Assembly (NCBI RefSeq): GCF_018860745.1
Contig: NZ_JAHKPY010000014.1
Span: forward strand, 372,001-436,000
Reading direction: 5' to 3'
Origin: Zobellia uliginosa
GTDB taxonomy: Bacteria > Bacteroidota > Bacteroidia > Flavobacteriales > Flavobacteriaceae
DNA length: 64,000 nucleotides
Within the stretch, counting starts at the first letter, position 1. The number at the start of each line of letters is the position of its first letter. A program made the translations under genes and the position numbers. Below are positions 4,207 to 14,033 of the stretch, in pieces. The notes below the pieces were generated by a model. That model did no database searches and was not told where the DNA came from. It worked only from the letters and a program-made list of their open reading frames with translations.

Positions 4207-4392
4207 CTACTTTGTGTCCAACGAAAAATTACTCAGCATAATACCGCAAGTCCCAAAGCTAATGAGGAGGTAAACACCGGTAAGAATAAAGAAAATCTTT
4301 GCCATTTTATTATTTTTTCTAATTAGGCCAACTATAGCTAGAATTAGAAAAATTATGGGCGGGCCTATCATTAAAAATACAAGTGTGATCAT
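4207..4392 (-). CDS. Small two-helix membrane protein in the Lgt-like/radical SAM operon
   Basis: A 61-residue peptide with two predicted membrane helices (about 2-22 and 33-52) joined by a short basic loop (RKNNKMAK). Its ATG overlaps the stop codon of the upstream radical SAM gene (ATGA, 4389-4392), which implies translational coupling and a shared job. I do not recognise a family. A role as membrane anchor or partner for the radical SAM enzyme is inference from position only. Confidence 0.6.
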   Translation of the reverse strand: MITLVFLMIGPPIIFLILAIVGLIRKNNKMAKIFFILTGVYLLISFGTCGIMLSNFSLDTK

Positions 4393-5783
4393 GCCAGTTC
4401 GTTTTGCAGTTGTTCTAAATGATTCACTTTATCATCTCTATAAAACAAGTTCATTGTTTCAAAAGGAATGATTTTATAGTCTTTATTCACAATGTGCACA
4501 CATGATTTTTTAATGGCGCGAACATCAAAATTATGAGCGTCTATAAACTGCATGATGATAATCCGGAACAGATTGTCATACCCAAGTTCTGGAGCATCAA
4601 TTTCAGGCAAACAGCACATAATACTCTTCAGGTTTTCCGAAGCCTTTTCAACGGAATTTCCTGTGCTAAAGAGTTCAATCATCTTACCGTGTAAAGCCTC
4701 GTCTTGCTCATAGATTATAGTATTCTTGCCCTCGTTCAATAAATCGTCAGGATTAATATATCGCGTAAGCGGACTCACCTCATCTCCTAATTTTAGGGCA
4801 TAGGCCATTACCAATGCATCCGGATTACAGGGTACGGGAATAAGATCATCACTCTCAAAAATTGGGGATTGTTCAAGTATTTTTCTTCGTACCTCGGTAA
4901 GGGTAATTCTGTTATCATCTACCTCAAAATTTTCTAAACGCCCAGCAACCTGAGTAGGTTGAAAAGTTACACCGCGAACGCATTTTTGTTTTATCGCAAA
5001 GTCTATTGTCTCTCCCATTTCATGGTCGTTCAATCCTTTTCGCAAGGTGATTACGAGTGTTGTAGAAAGGTTCAGTTTATTAAGGTTTTCCAACGCTTTT
5101 AAGCGGATTTCAGCTAAATCGGCTCCTCGTAGTGTTTGAAGTACTTTATTGTCAAGTGAATCAAACTGCAGGTAAATTTCAAAATCGGGAGCGTAGGTTG
5201 CCAACCTCTCTGCAAAGGCAAAATCTTTGGCAATTTTAATGCCATTGGTATTGACCATCAAATGTCTAATGGGCAAAGTTTTGGCATAATCCATTATTTC
5301 AAAAAACTGTGGATGTATGGTAGGTTCGCCACCACTTAACTGCACAACATCGGGCTCACCTTCGTTCCTTACAATAACATCAAGCATCTTTTTAATTTCC
5401 TCCAAAGTACGATGCCTCCCATAATTTGAAGAGGAAGACGCGTAACACGTAGGACAGGTAAGGTTACAGCGGTCCGTTAGTTCAACAACGGTTAAACAGG
5501 AATGTTGCTCATGATCTGGGCAAAGACCGCAATCATACGGGCATCCGTAATGGGTTTTGGTATTAAAGGTCTTTGGGTATTCAGAAGCCTTGTTGTAGTT
5601 TCTAATGTTCTTGTAATATTCAACATCATCTGCAATAAGCACTTTACTTTTGCCGTGCTCCTTGCAGTTTTTTAGCATATATACTTTATCGTTCTCAAAG
5701 ACGATTTTAGCATCTACACGTCGTAAACATTCTGGGCAAAGACTAAGCGTAAAATCATAATAGGTGTAGTTTTTTGAGGGCAT
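4389..5783 (-). CDS. Radical SAM protein, Tes/MJ0619-like cysteine architecture
   Basis: The radical SAM cluster motif is DRCNLTCPTCYAS (CX3CX2C), with 'QLSGGEPT' downstream. The N-terminus carries CPEC, then NCKEHG, then a GCPYDCGLCPDHEQHSC segment just before the SAM motif. This order of extra cysteines is the layout I know from the archaeal tetraether lipid synthase family (Tes, MJ0619), which holds auxiliary Fe-S clusters and a rubredoxin-like iron site and couples lipid alkyl chains. More cysteines occur in the C-terminal half (CNPDAL, IMCCLPE, KSCVHIVN). It overlaps the upstream Lgt-like gene by 29 bases and the downstream two-helix gene by 4. The family link is by motif order, without a search. 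The substrate, probably a lipid or lipoprotein acyl chain, is inferred from the neighbours. Confidence 0.75.
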   Translation of the reverse strand: MPSKNYTYYDFTLSLCPECLRRVDAKIVFENDKVYMLKNCKEHGKSKVLIADDVEYYKNIRNYNKASEYPKTFNTKTHYGCPYDCGLCPDHEQHSCLTVVELTDRCNLTCPTCYASSSSNYGRHRTLEEIKKMLDVIVRNEGEPDVVQLSGGEPTIHPQFFEIMDYAKTLPIRHLMVNTNGIKIAKDFAFAERLATYAPDFEIYLQFDSLDNKVLQTLRGADLAEIRLKALENLNKLNLSTTLVITLRKGLNDHEMGETIDFAIKQKCVRGVTFQPTQVAGRLENFEVDDNRITLTEVRRKILEQSPIFESDDLIPVPCNPDALVMAYALKLGDEVSPLTRYINPDDLLNEGKNTIIYEQDEALHGKMIELFSTGNSVEKASENLKSIMCCLPEIDAPELGYDNLFRIIIMQFIDAHNFDVRAIKKSCVHIVNKDYKIIPFETMNLFYRDDKVNHLEQLQNELA

Positions 5784-6522
5784 AGGCAGTTGCTTGGCGA
5801 ATGGTTTGTTGGTAATATAAGAGACAAATTAAGCATAATATCTGAATGCTACTTAAGCCCAAGGTGAAATAGGTATTAGGTTTCAAGAACTCAATTAAGA
5901 ATCGAAACGTAAAGTATAAAATCATAAAAATCTTGAAAAGCATTCCACTTTCCAAGGGTTGTGAAAATTTTTGAATTCGCTTCAAAAGAATAAATAAAAG
6001 TAACAGGAAAAATACTTCGTAAAGGGCAATGGGGTGTCTGTTTAGACCATCACCTAGGTTCATTCCCATAAAAAATGAAGTCTCTTTACCATAAGTGAAT
6101 TCGTTTGTACCCGCTAAAAAGCACCCTACTCTTCCTAGGATTATACCTAGTAGGATAGGGAAGGAGAAAAGGTCTCCAGAAGACTCTTTTTCGTCAATCA
6201 TCAACTTTGCCAATTCTACTCCCAGCAGTCCTCCAAAAAGGCCGCCCATGATGGTTTTATTGTTCATTAGGGCCATCCAGCCTTCTTGGGAATGTAGTAT
6301 AGGATTTTCTAAAAAAGCTACAATTCTAGAAAGCAACAATGCACCAAAAATTGCCCCGATGATTATGGAAAGCCTATTGGTAGAAGAAATAGAATCCGCA
6401 CTTCGGTTTCGTAGAAAGACATAATACCTAAAGGCAGTAAAAAACGCCAGATACTCTAGAATAAGGTGCATATTCCATTTTATACCAAAGAGTATAGGTT
6501 CAAAAGGCAGGGTTATATCCAT
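5755..6522 (-). CDS. Divergent prolipoprotein diacylglyceryl transferase (Lgt)-like membrane protein
   Basis: A 255-residue polytopic membrane protein of the Lgt fold. The Lgt signature GRxG is present (ILGRVGCFLAG) and so is the C-terminal RF-x2-E motif (FRFLIEFLKP). The loop matching HGGLxG of E. coli Lgt reads IMGGLFGGLLG, so the essential His103 is Met, and the Asn after GRxG is Cys. It may therefore be a transferase with changed chemistry or substrate. I place the start at ATG 6522. The longer TTG start at 6534 would fall inside a perfect -7 box. It heads the operon with the radical SAM gene. A canonical Lgt is presumably encoded elsewhere. Confidence 0.75.
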   Translation of the reverse strand: MDITLPFEPILFGIKWNMHLILEYLAFFTAFRYYVFLRNRSADSISSTNRLSIIIGAIFGALLLSRIVAFLENPILHSQEGWMALMNNKTIMGGLFGGLLGVELAKLMIDEKESSGDLFSFPILLGIILGRVGCFLAGTNEFTYGKETSFFMGMNLGDGLNRHPIALYEVFFLLLLFILLKRIQKFSQPLESGMLFKIFMILYFTFRFLIEFLKPNTYFTLGLSSIQILCLICLLYYQQTIRQATAYALKKLHLL

Positions 6523-10903: not shown

Positions 10904-11461
10904 ATGAGTGAAACATTCTACATAAAAAACATGGTCTGTAACCGTTGTATCGCCTCGGTTCTAGATATTTTTGGCAAGGAAGATTATACTGTAGAGTCTG
11001 TAGAACTAGGTAAAGTAAGTGCGGCGGCAGGTAAAAAAACCAATAAGTCTGCCTTAGACAGGAAATTAAAAGAAAAAGGTTTTGAGCTTATAGACAACGA
11101 AACCGAAACACTGGTAGAGCAAATAAAAGTGAAATTGATAAGCAAGATCAAATCAGGTGAAACGGAGCACCTTTTTCTATCGTTAGCGGAAGAATTTAAT
11201 AAGACCGAAACAGCGCTGAGCAAGTTGTTCAGTAAATCGGAAGGAATGACTCTAGAGAAATACACCATCAATCTAAAGATTGAAAAAGTAAAAGAATATA
11301 TACAATTAGGGCAGCTTAACTTCTCCGAAATTGCATATTCCTTAAATTATAAAAACAGCAGTCACTTAGCGCGGCAGTTCAAAACCAGTACAGGCATGTC
11401 TATGACCGAGTATAAAAACCTAAAAAGCTGGAATAGAAAAACGCTGGACAAAATTGTATAA
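10904..11461 (+). CDS. Copper-module regulator: heavy-metal-binding domain fused to AraC DNA-binding domain
   Basis: Residues 1-63 resemble a heavy-metal-associated (HMA) domain with the metal motif MVCNRC (CX2C) after a first beta-strand. Residues about 85-180 are an AraC/XylS double helix-turn-helix (LSLAEEFNKTETALSKLF and SEIAYSLNYKNSSHLARQFKTSTGMSMTEYK). The HMA CX2C loop binds Cu(I) in chaperones and CopA, so the fusion is most simply a copper sensor and activator of the next gene, copA, 70 bases downstream. Linkage and domain content are seen; copper specificity is inference. Confidence 0.8.
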   Translation: MSETFYIKNMVCNRCIASVLDIFGKEDYTVESVELGKVSAAAGKKTNKSALDRKLKEKGFELIDNETETLVEQIKVKLISKIKSGETEHLFLSLAEEFNKTETALSKLFSKSEGMTLEKYTINLKIEKVKEYIQLGQLNFSEIAYSLNYKNSSHLARQFKTSTGMSMTEYKNLKSWNRKTLDKIV

Positions 11462-11531: not shown

Positions 11532-14033
11532 ATGACACATACCTATCATATACACGGAATGACTTGCAACGGATGTCGCAGTCATGTAGAACAGACGCTT
11601 TCTAAGGTTGCTGGTGTAACCAATGCTTCGGTAAATTTAGAGAAGGCAGAGGCTACTATTGAGATGGGATCTCATATCCCTATTGAAACTTTTCAAAAAG
11701 CGCTGTTAGAGGATGGGGGTTCATACAGTATTCATAATGCAGGAGAACATCAACATCATCCAGTAGAGAAAGCCCAAAAGCCAAAAGGTAAGGGAACCGG
11801 TGTTTTCTATTGCCCAATGCATTGTGAGGACGATAAAACGTATGATGAGGCTGGTGATTGCCCCGTTTGTGGAATGGATTTGGTGGAAGAGCAAAACTTA
11901 ACGCCCACTTCTTCCGAGCAATGGACCTGCCCAATGCACCCCGAAGTGATTCACGATGAACCGGGAAGTTGCCCTATTTGCGGAATGGATTTAGTACCTA
12001 TGAAGCCAAGTCTTTCCGCGGAAGAGAAAACGTATAAAAAACTTTCAAAAAAATTCTGGTTAGCGCTTGCTTTAACCTTGCCCATCTTCCTCATTGCCAT
12101 GAGCGAGATGATTCCTAACAATCCGCTGTACGATATAATGGAGCAGAAATGGTGGAATTGGATTCAGTTTGGGCTTTCTATTCCTGTTGTTTTTTATGCC
12201 ACGTGGATGTTCTTTGAGCGCGCCTACCGAAGTATCAAAACATGGAACCTAAATATGTTTACCCTCATCGGTATTGGTGCTGGGGTAGCTTGGTTGTTCA
12301 GTGTTTTTGGAATGTTGTTTCCAGACTTTTTCCCTCAGGAATTTAAAACGGAATCTGGCGCGGTACACGTTTATTTTGAGGCCGCAACAGTTATTCTTAC
12401 GTTGGTATTAATGGGGCAAGTACTGGAAGCACGAGCACATAGTAAGACCAATTCTGCAGTAAAGGAATTGTTGAAACTTGCACCTAATAAAGCAGTCCGT
12501 GTTGTAGATGGAGTTGAAGAAGAGGTTTCCATTGATAAAATACAAAAAGGGGATACGCTACGTGTGAAACCAGGCGAAAAAATTCCTATGGATGGCGTTA
12601 TTACGGAAGGGCAGACCACCGTTGATGAATCTATGATTTCGGGAGAACCTATTCCGGTTAATAAAGAGGAAGATGATAAAGTAAGTAGTGGTACGATAAA
12701 CGGAAATCAGTCTTTCTTAATGAAGGCGGAAAAAGTAGGTAATGAAACCTTATTGTCCCAAATTATACAAATGGTGAACGACGCCAGTCGCAGTCGTGCT
12801 CCTATTCAAAAGTTGGCAGATACGGTTTCTAGTTATTTTGTGCCTGTTGTGGTCGTTATTTCAGTAATCACATTTGCGGTTTGGGCCATTTGGGGTCCAG
12901 AGCCTGCGTATGTATTTGCATTAGTTAATGCCATTGCTGTTTTAATAATTGCGTGTCCCTGTGCTTTAGGTCTTGCAACACCTATGTCTATTATGGTTGG
13001 GGTTGGTAAAGGAGCTCAAAACGGTGTATTGGTGAAAAATGCCGAAGCCCTTGAGAAAATGTATAAGTTAGATACGTTAATTGTAGATAAAACAGGAACT
13101 ATCACCGAAGGAAAACCAACAGTGGAAGCTATTGGCACCTCAAGAAAAGATTATTCCGAAAACGAAGTATTACAATACATAGCCTCCTTAAATAGTTCTA
13201 GTGAGCACCCACTTGCTGAGGCAACGGTTAAATACGGAAAAGAACAAGATGTTGAAGTATTGAAAACAGAAAACTTTAATGCTGTAACAGGAAAAGGAGT
13301 AGAGGGAAAGATTAATGGCAAAAAAGTGGCATTGGGTAACATCAAAATGATGGAACATGTTAATGCGACTATAAGTACCGACTTTCAAAACGAGGCCAAT
13401 GAGCATCAAAAGAAAGGCAAAACGGTATCCTATTTAGCTATTGATGAAGCGGTTGTTGGCTTTGTTGTTATTGGCGATAAAATAAAAGAAACAAGTGCCA
13501 AAGCTATTAAAGCACTTCAAGATAAAGGTATAGCGGTTGTTATGCTTACTGGGGATAATCACGATACAGCTCAAGCAGTCGCCAAAGAACTCGGTCTTGC
13601 CGACTTTAAAGCGGGAATGCTTCCTGAAGATAAATTAGCAGAGGTTAAAAAACTGCAGGAACAACGACATGTAGTAGCAATGGCAGGAGATGGTATTAAT
13701 GACGCACCTGCATTGGCCAAAAGTGATGTAGGTATTGCCATGGGAACCGGAACGGATGTAGCCATAGAAAGCGCCATGATAACCTTGGTAAAAGGTGATT
13801 TGCACGGTATTGTAAAAGCAAGAAACCTAAGTGAAGCCGTAATGAAGAACATCAGGCAAAATTTGTTTTTCGCGCTCATATATAATACTATTGGAATACC
13901 CATTGCGGCGGGAATTCTGTATCCCGTTTTTGGACTTTTATTATCTCCAATGATTGCCGCATTGGCCATGAGTTTTAGTTCGGTATCCGTAATTGCGAAT
14001 GCACTAAGGCTGCGAACGGTTAAAATTGAGTAG
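11532..14033 (+). CDS. copA: Copper-translocating P-type ATPase
   Basis: An 833-aa P1B-type ATPase exporting Cu(I). The N-terminus holds an HMA domain (MTCNGC, residues ~10-15), then two tandem heavy-metal-binding zinc-ribbon-like motifs, CPMHC...GDCPVCGMDL and CPMHPE...GSCPICGMDL (about residues 93-160). Membrane helices follow, with the transport motif CPC (near 475), TGES-like 'ISGEPIPV', the phosphorylation site DKTGT (near 518), the HP motif 'SEHPLAEA', TGDN, and GDGINDAPALA. All catalytic motifs are intact. It lies behind the HMA-AraC regulator and is probably induced by it. Confidence 0.93.
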   Translation: MTHTYHIHGMTCNGCRSHVEQTLSKVAGVTNASVNLEKAEATIEMGSHIPIETFQKALLEDGGSYSIHNAGEHQHHPVEKAQKPKGKGTGVFYCPMHCEDDKTYDEAGDCPVCGMDLVEEQNLTPTSSEQWTCPMHPEVIHDEPGSCPICGMDLVPMKPSLSAEEKTYKKLSKKFWLALALTLPIFLIAMSEMIPNNPLYDIMEQKWWNWIQFGLSIPVVFYATWMFFERAYRSIKTWNLNMFTLIGIGAGVAWLFSVFGMLFPDFFPQEFKTESGAVHVYFEAATVILTLVLMGQVLEARAHSKTNSAVKELLKLAPNKAVRVVDGVEEEVSIDKIQKGDTLRVKPGEKIPMDGVITEGQTTVDESMISGEPIPVNKEEDDKVSSGTINGNQSFLMKAEKVGNETLLSQIIQMVNDASRSRAPIQKLADTVSSYFVPVVVVISVITFAVWAIWGPEPAYVFALVNAIAVLIIACPCALGLATPMSIMVGVGKGAQNGVLVKNAEALEKMYKLDTLIVDKTGTITEGKPTVEAIGTSRKDYSENEVLQYIASLNSSSEHPLAEATVKYGKEQDVEVLKTENFNAVTGKGVEGKINGKKVALGNIKMMEHVNATISTDFQNEANEHQKKGKTVSYLAIDEAVVGFVVIGDKIKETSAKAIKALQDKGIAVVMLTGDNHDTAQAVAKELGLADFKAGMLPEDKLAEVKKLQEQRHVVAMAGDGINDAPALAKSDVGIAMGTGTDVAIESAMITLVKGDLHGIVKARNLSEAVMKNIRQNLFFALIYNTIGIPIAAGILYPVFGLLLSPMIAALAMSFSSVSVIANALRLRTVKIE

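Follow-up and report, generated by a model that had tools for sequence, protein, structure and literature searches.

An Lgt-like transferase, a radical SAM protein, and a small membrane protein with a C-terminal cysteine: a candidate lipidation trio in Zobellia and other bacteria

We analyzed a 64,000-nucleotide stretch of Zobellia uliginosa DNA (contig NZ_JAHKPY010000014.1, positions 372,001 to 436,000; here called the window) and found a unit of three overlapping genes, coding for an Lgt-like membrane transferase that we name Lgt2, a radical S-adenosylmethionine (SAM) protein, and a small membrane protein. We tentatively propose, as the account that the sequences support best, that Lgt2 lipidates a cysteine of the small protein and that the radical SAM enzyme alters a chain of the lipid. 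Four sequence findings underlie this proposal: the three genes form a unit, they are inherited together, catalytic residues are conserved, and the small protein has an invariant G-x-C. We infer from them the lipidation of the cysteine, the acyl chain as the radical substrate, the order of the steps, and the topology, the last by positive-inside reasoning only. The three genes are the following:

5755 to 6522, minus strand: Lgt2, an Lgt-like integral membrane transferase (255 amino acids [aa])
4389 to 5783, minus strand: radical SAM protein of the MJ0619 superfamily (464 aa)
4207 to 4392, minus strand: small two-helix membrane protein, the candidate lipid acceptor (61 aa)

The Lgt2 and radical SAM genes overlap by 29 nucleotides, and the radical SAM and small-protein genes overlap in an ATGA. 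Scanning named genomes with the radical SAM protein, which is 94% identical to its counterpart in Z. uliginosa, we examined the 6-kb flanks of the 80 top-ranked relatives out of at least 577. Each of these 80 loci harbored, near the radical SAM gene, a gene for Lgt2 and one or more genes for small membrane proteins, so the trio reflects more than chance. Together with the minus-strand coordinates and the overlaps, this bears out the initial annotation, which had read the three genes as one operon. In most loci, the Lgt2 gene abuts or overlaps the radical SAM gene; in a few (L080 and L099), the distance reaches 5.5 kb. The inserts between the two genes in L080, L089, L099, and L102 are different each time and were uninformative.

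We then turned to 395 evenly sampled Bacteroidota genomes, with thresholds of E<1e-100 for the radical SAM protein and E<1e-35 for Lgt2. The former was found in 31 genomes and the latter in 32, with 31 genomes containing both (Fisher P = 3e-45, uncorrected for kinship); G075 was the one sampled genome with Lgt2 and no radical SAM protein. Two genomes, G092 and G328, contain both genes at unlinked positions, which argues that the tie between them is functional and not merely positional. The small protein was recognizable by profile (E<1e-12) in 13 genomes, all of which carry both partners. Evaluation of the radical SAM and Lgt2 trees revealed the same three sub-clades in each, consistent with joint inheritance. 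The set also extends beyond the Bacteroidota, to plasmids of Mycobacterium branderi and M. avium and to a large replicon of Nonomuraea gerenzanensis, where the radical SAM protein is about 30% identical to that of Zobellia and the small proteins precede its gene, with two small proteins in each mycobacterial plasmid locus:

L167, 3328 to 6521; L169, 3198 to 6518; L168, 3090 to 6467: actinobacterial trio loci (Mycobacterium plasmids and Nonomuraea)

A separate observation concerns the clade of L144 to L146 (38% identity), in which genes for an ICMT-like methyltransferase (PF04140) and a DUF4395 membrane protein stand between the radical SAM gene and the Lgt2 gene, and the small protein comes after Lgt2:

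L144, 7883 to 8948; L145; L146, 4784 to 5855: extra genes, possible fourth and fifth parts of the system

The small protein scored above cut-off with no Pfam or NCBIfam family, and almost all systems encode an equivalent of it next to the radical SAM gene. When 12 diverse small proteins were aligned, I36, G47, and C49 were the only invariant positions, of which the last two belong to the C-terminal G-x-C:

4246 to 4248, minus strand: codon of Cys49

We searched for this end with a strict rule, namely, K or R followed by a hydrophobic stretch and, at most 31 residues from the C terminus, by [GSA]-x-C. At 108 of 119 loci, a gene next to that of the radical SAM protein fitted the rule, versus 2 of 549 other small hydrophobic open reading frames (ORFs) of the same DNA. 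The control ORFs come from the same loci and are mostly not real genes, and most of the 108 loci are from related flavobacteria and so are not independent. Seven of the 11 loci outside the rule display a G-x-C-like end by eye: four have G at -3 (GYIC, GFVC, or CIC), and three end in NGMC or QGLC, with N or Q in the stretch, or in GGMC (L148), upstream of the rule window. The other four are G268, cut by a contig end and with three small genes on another contig, the unlinked G092, and the Tes-type loci L147 and L149 (see below). We consider it a stronger point than the 108-locus count that about 10 clades (L124 to L150 and the actinobacteria), whose small proteins cannot be linked by BLAST to that of Zobellia, share the C-terminal end, which reads GGLC, VGVC, AGIC, or AGYC in Mycobacterium and Nonomuraea. 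Small cysteine proteins also occur in two or three tandem copies (L039, L055, L060, L088, and L103; G268, contig C147, 260 to 816).

The segment preceding the last helix of the small protein is positively charged, and the tail that follows the cysteine has 3 to 14 residues and is near neutral in most cases. By the positive-inside rule, this would place the cysteine on the periplasmic side, where Lgt works. The end looks like the layout of a lipoprotein signal peptide set at the C terminus, with the small residue at -2 and not at -1: in Zobellia, FGTC has Thr at -1 and does not match the lipobox pattern [LVI][ASTVI][GAS]C, and the n-h-Cys layout is present. Since position -1 is mostly bulky across the clades (I, V, or T, after G at -2), we would not expect signal peptidase II to cut the small protein, which would be left whole. 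The initial annotation had suggested that this protein holds the enzyme at the membrane; a mere anchor leaves the invariant G-x-C, its main conserved feature, unexplained, and we rejected that role as weaker than that of an acceptor.

Analysis of Lgt2 supported the Lgt fold expected from the first inspection of the sequence. The protein matched PF01790 (LGT) with 77 bits (cut-off 24.9), and the only strong match of its AlphaFold2 model in the PDB was E. coli Lgt (5azb; Foldseek E 5.6e-4; Z 12.0, root mean square deviation 5.1, 229 aligned), with lower ranks at background level. Its score against the lgt equivalog TIGR00544 was 47 bits, under the cut-off of 118.9. A canonical Lgt is encoded elsewhere in the same genome (contig C12) and scores 184.5 bits, versus 76.9 for Lgt2; in a tree of 12 Lgt2 and three canonical Lgt sequences, the two groups separated with 100/100 support. 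Two sites of Lgt2 carry arginines shared with E. coli Lgt:

6121 to 6135, minus strand: GRVGC, in which R131 corresponds to E. coli R143 and C134 replaces N146 (alignment with E. coli Lgt and the canonical Lgt of the genome)
5902 to 5904, minus strand: R207, corresponding to E. coli R239 and kept in 12 of 12 Lgt2 sequences (alignment)

In E. coli numbering, all 12 Lgt2 sequences share R143, G154, Y235, E202, and R239 with E. coli Lgt and have E or D at position 243. They differ from it in that N146 is a cysteine and E151 is gone in all 12, H103 is replaced by M, V, L, A, or T (hydrophobic but for one Thr), and Y26 is His in nine sequences and Tyr in three. Among the six residues essential in E. 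coli Lgt, R143, G154, and R239 are kept in Lgt2, and H103, N146, and in most sequences Y26 are replaced. The E. coli structure of Mao et al. places R143 and R239 at the lipid center and has E151 binding phosphatidylglycerol in a first site, and the HGGL motif was proposed as the site of the lipobox peptide (PMC4728403). Because R143 and R239 are proposed to act on the lipid and HGGL is the proposed peptide site, the changes in Lgt2 fall at positions that would have to change for a different acceptor, and the donor side of the enzyme appears kept and its acceptor side changed. It is plausible that Lgt2 handles diacylglyceryl lipids, as the initial annotation had it; its donor-pocket residues are kept, and those proposed to bind the phosphatidylglycerol head group and the peptide are not. 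Distant Lgts are known to vary at H103 and N146, an E151A variant is still functional, and MSMEG_5408, the second Lgt homologue of M. smegmatis, has Y26H and N146C, as do most Lgt2 sequences (PMC13251419).

The radical SAM protein contains the extra cysteines noted initially ahead of CX3CX2C, in the order C16-x2-C19-x20-C40-x2-H43, G-C81-PYD-C85-GL-C88-xx-H91-xx-H94-x-C96, and C106-x3-C110-x2-C113:

5496 to 5543, minus strand: CPYDCGLCPDHEQHSC, N-terminal auxiliary cluster region, with QHxC as in TrsS-type proteins and not in Tes (sequence and alignment)
5445 to 5468, minus strand: CX3CX2C radical SAM cluster motif (C106, C110, and C113), invariant in 17 of 17 aligned proteins (sequence)

Pfam searches returned PF04055 (97 bits; cut-off 29.5) and PF23545, the HMPTM zinc ribbon (72 bits; cut-off 27). 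The best PDB relative was Tes/GDGT-MAS (MJ0619, 7tol; E 1e-69), which Foldseek also matched with E 8e-29, on a weak AlphaFold2 model (pLDDT 65). With Tes, the Zobellia enzyme shares the rubredoxin-like site of C16, C19, C40, and H43, the CPxDCGxC N-terminal cluster region, CX3CX2C, the fold, and a superfamily tied to membrane lipids; it differs from Tes in having QHxC and PVPC, and Ile431 and Glu442 in place of Tyr459 and of the cysteine that follows IIPF in Tes. The loss of Tyr459 alone is not disqualifying, since the Y459F and Y459L variants of Tes are still active (PMC9433317). Among NCBIfam models, the best score was for the radical SAM (seleno)protein TrsS (NF045646; 332 bits, cut-off 490), followed by Tes (NF045702; 295 bits, cut-off 450). 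As both curated cut-offs were missed, we did not file the protein under either name. By these comparisons it is a member of the MJ0619 superfamily and a sister type within it; the "Tes-like" label of the initial annotation holds at the superfamily level and fails for Tes proper, as QHxC, PVPC, and the C-terminal region match the TrsS type.

All 17 aligned proteins have the three rubredoxin-like cysteines, as they do CX3CX2C, and the CPxDCGxC cluster cysteines are lost in the actinobacterial and L148 members. H94, C96, and C319 are present in every trio member and in TrsS-like proteins of Halobacteria and M. vanbaalenii and are absent from Tes-type proteins. The trio members group in the radical SAM tree with moderate support (73/84), and the program warns of long branches. 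TrsS-like relatives adjoin a class I methyltransferase gene and not an Lgt gene, unlike the radical SAM genes of the trio; in the Halobacteria and M. vanbaalenii, each is followed by such a gene (L165, 4998 to 7161; L166, 4974 to 7084; L163, 5983 to 8351). The Tes model was controlled with L147 of the Bacteroidota, which scored 494 bits, over 450; L149 scored 442 bits, just under. No Lgt2 was recognized in the flanks of these two Tes-type genes of the same phylum. The two proteins (L147, 6864 to 8321; L149, 6107 to 7582) belong to Bacteroidota sensu lato and are candidate makers of membrane-spanning lipids.

We propose that Lgt2, facing the periplasm, would take a glycerolipid group (diacylglyceryl being the probable one) from a phospholipid of the membrane and attach it to the small-protein cysteine, which would lie at the outer end of the last helix. 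This helix would mimic a lipoprotein signal peptide, set at the C terminus. Before or after this transfer, the cytosolic radical SAM enzyme would perform radical chemistry on the lipid tail, through hydrogen abstraction by a 5'-deoxyadenosyl radical. A possible target is the iso-branched tail end typical of these bacteria, which could be joined, alkylated, or thiolated. The Tes paper likens iso-branched bacterial tails to archaeal tail ends (PMC8941075), and iso-C15 fatty acids are abundant in a related flavobacterial genus (PMC11278836); these two points make a tail reaction at most plausible. The nearest solved relative of the radical SAM protein being a lipid-tail enzyme also argues by analogy for this proposal, and the Lgt fold beside an MJ0619-superfamily partner fits the lipid or lipoprotein theme suggested at the outset.

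Several points weigh against our proposal. H103, essential in E. coli, is absent from Lgt2, Y26 is mostly His, and E151 is gone, which makes its transferase activity and its donor uncertain. Membership of the MJ0619 superfamily is no proof of a lipid substrate, as TrsS is without assigned function and several cluster cysteines differ from those of Tes. The tail after the small-protein cysteine is short, the bulky residue at -1 is unlike a normal lipobox, and the cysteine could instead be structural, redox active, or metal binding.

We weighed four other explanations. In the strongest of them, which we judge rather unlikely, the radical SAM protein and Lgt2 make an unusual free membrane lipid, whose tails are joined or alkylated or whose head group is altered, and the small protein serves only as a scaffold or to present the lipid. 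In favor of this reading, the closest solved relative is Tes, which works on free membrane lipids (PMC9433317), the donor-side residues of Lgt are retained in Lgt2, and an ICMT/PEMT-like methyltransferase lies in the L144 to L146 operon; however, the radical SAM protein is below the Tes cut-off, and it is left unexplained why the small protein conserves mainly its G-x-C. It is distinctly unlikely that the small protein itself is the radical SAM substrate, as in a ribosomally synthesized and posttranslationally modified peptide, and receives, for example, a thioether at its cysteine, with Lgt2 lipidating or exporting the product. The small gene beside the radical SAM gene, its frequent two or three tandem copies, and its conserved cysteine would suit this scheme, but the conserved part is a transmembrane helix, the cysteine is predicted to be periplasmic and so separated from an enzyme that is cytosolic, a lipid pocket is present in the solved relative, and we recognized no leader/core layout or protease gene in the flanks. 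That Lgt2 is a second ordinary Lgt, next to a radical SAM protein acting on something unrelated, seems improbable: the fold and the retained R143, G154, and R239 agree with it, as do the mycobacterial second Lgt homologues with Y26H and N146C (PMC13251419), but the separate 100/100 clade, the loss of H103, N146, and E151, and the near-perfect co-occurrence with the radical SAM gene speak against it. Finally, that the radical SAM enzyme is a class D methylase acting on a soluble cofactor, after the old pterin proposal for MJ0619, is very improbable despite the above-cut-off HMPTM zinc ribbon, since that proposal was not reproducible and MJ0619 turned out to be a lipid enzyme (PMC9433317), and the gene is linked to two membrane proteins.

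Elsewhere in the window, an ORF (10904 to 11461) combines, by eye, a heavy-metal-binding-like N terminus with an AraC-type helix-turn-helix end and lies directly upstream of a copper-type P-ATPase (11532 to 14033).

In the open-access literature that we searched (subscription papers were outside our coverage), we found no description of an Lgt-radical SAM pair or trio, only unrelated co-mentions, in line with the initial statement that the trio had no described function. Both enzyme superfamilies are known; their combination, the Lgt2 clade, and the partner with a C-terminal G-x-C appear to be undescribed. In the known bacterial lipoproteins made by Lgt, the lipid is carried by a cysteine that becomes the N terminus, and the acyl chains are ordinary. 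If our proposal is true, a separate Lgt clade tied to a radical enzyme and to a small protein whose cysteine is C-terminal would constitute a second lipidation route. In its full form, which we regard as possible but doubtful, this would be a pathway of two phyla: the radical SAM enzyme would rework the saturated tail of a lipid, and an Lgt-type transferase whose acceptor site has changed would attach that lipid to the C-terminal cysteine of a polytopic mini-protein. The product would be a bacterial lipoprotein lipidated at the C terminus, its anchor altered by radical chemistry. The trio would also offer a concrete candidate substrate for the large bacterial MJ0619-like family, the function of which was left open by the Tes papers.
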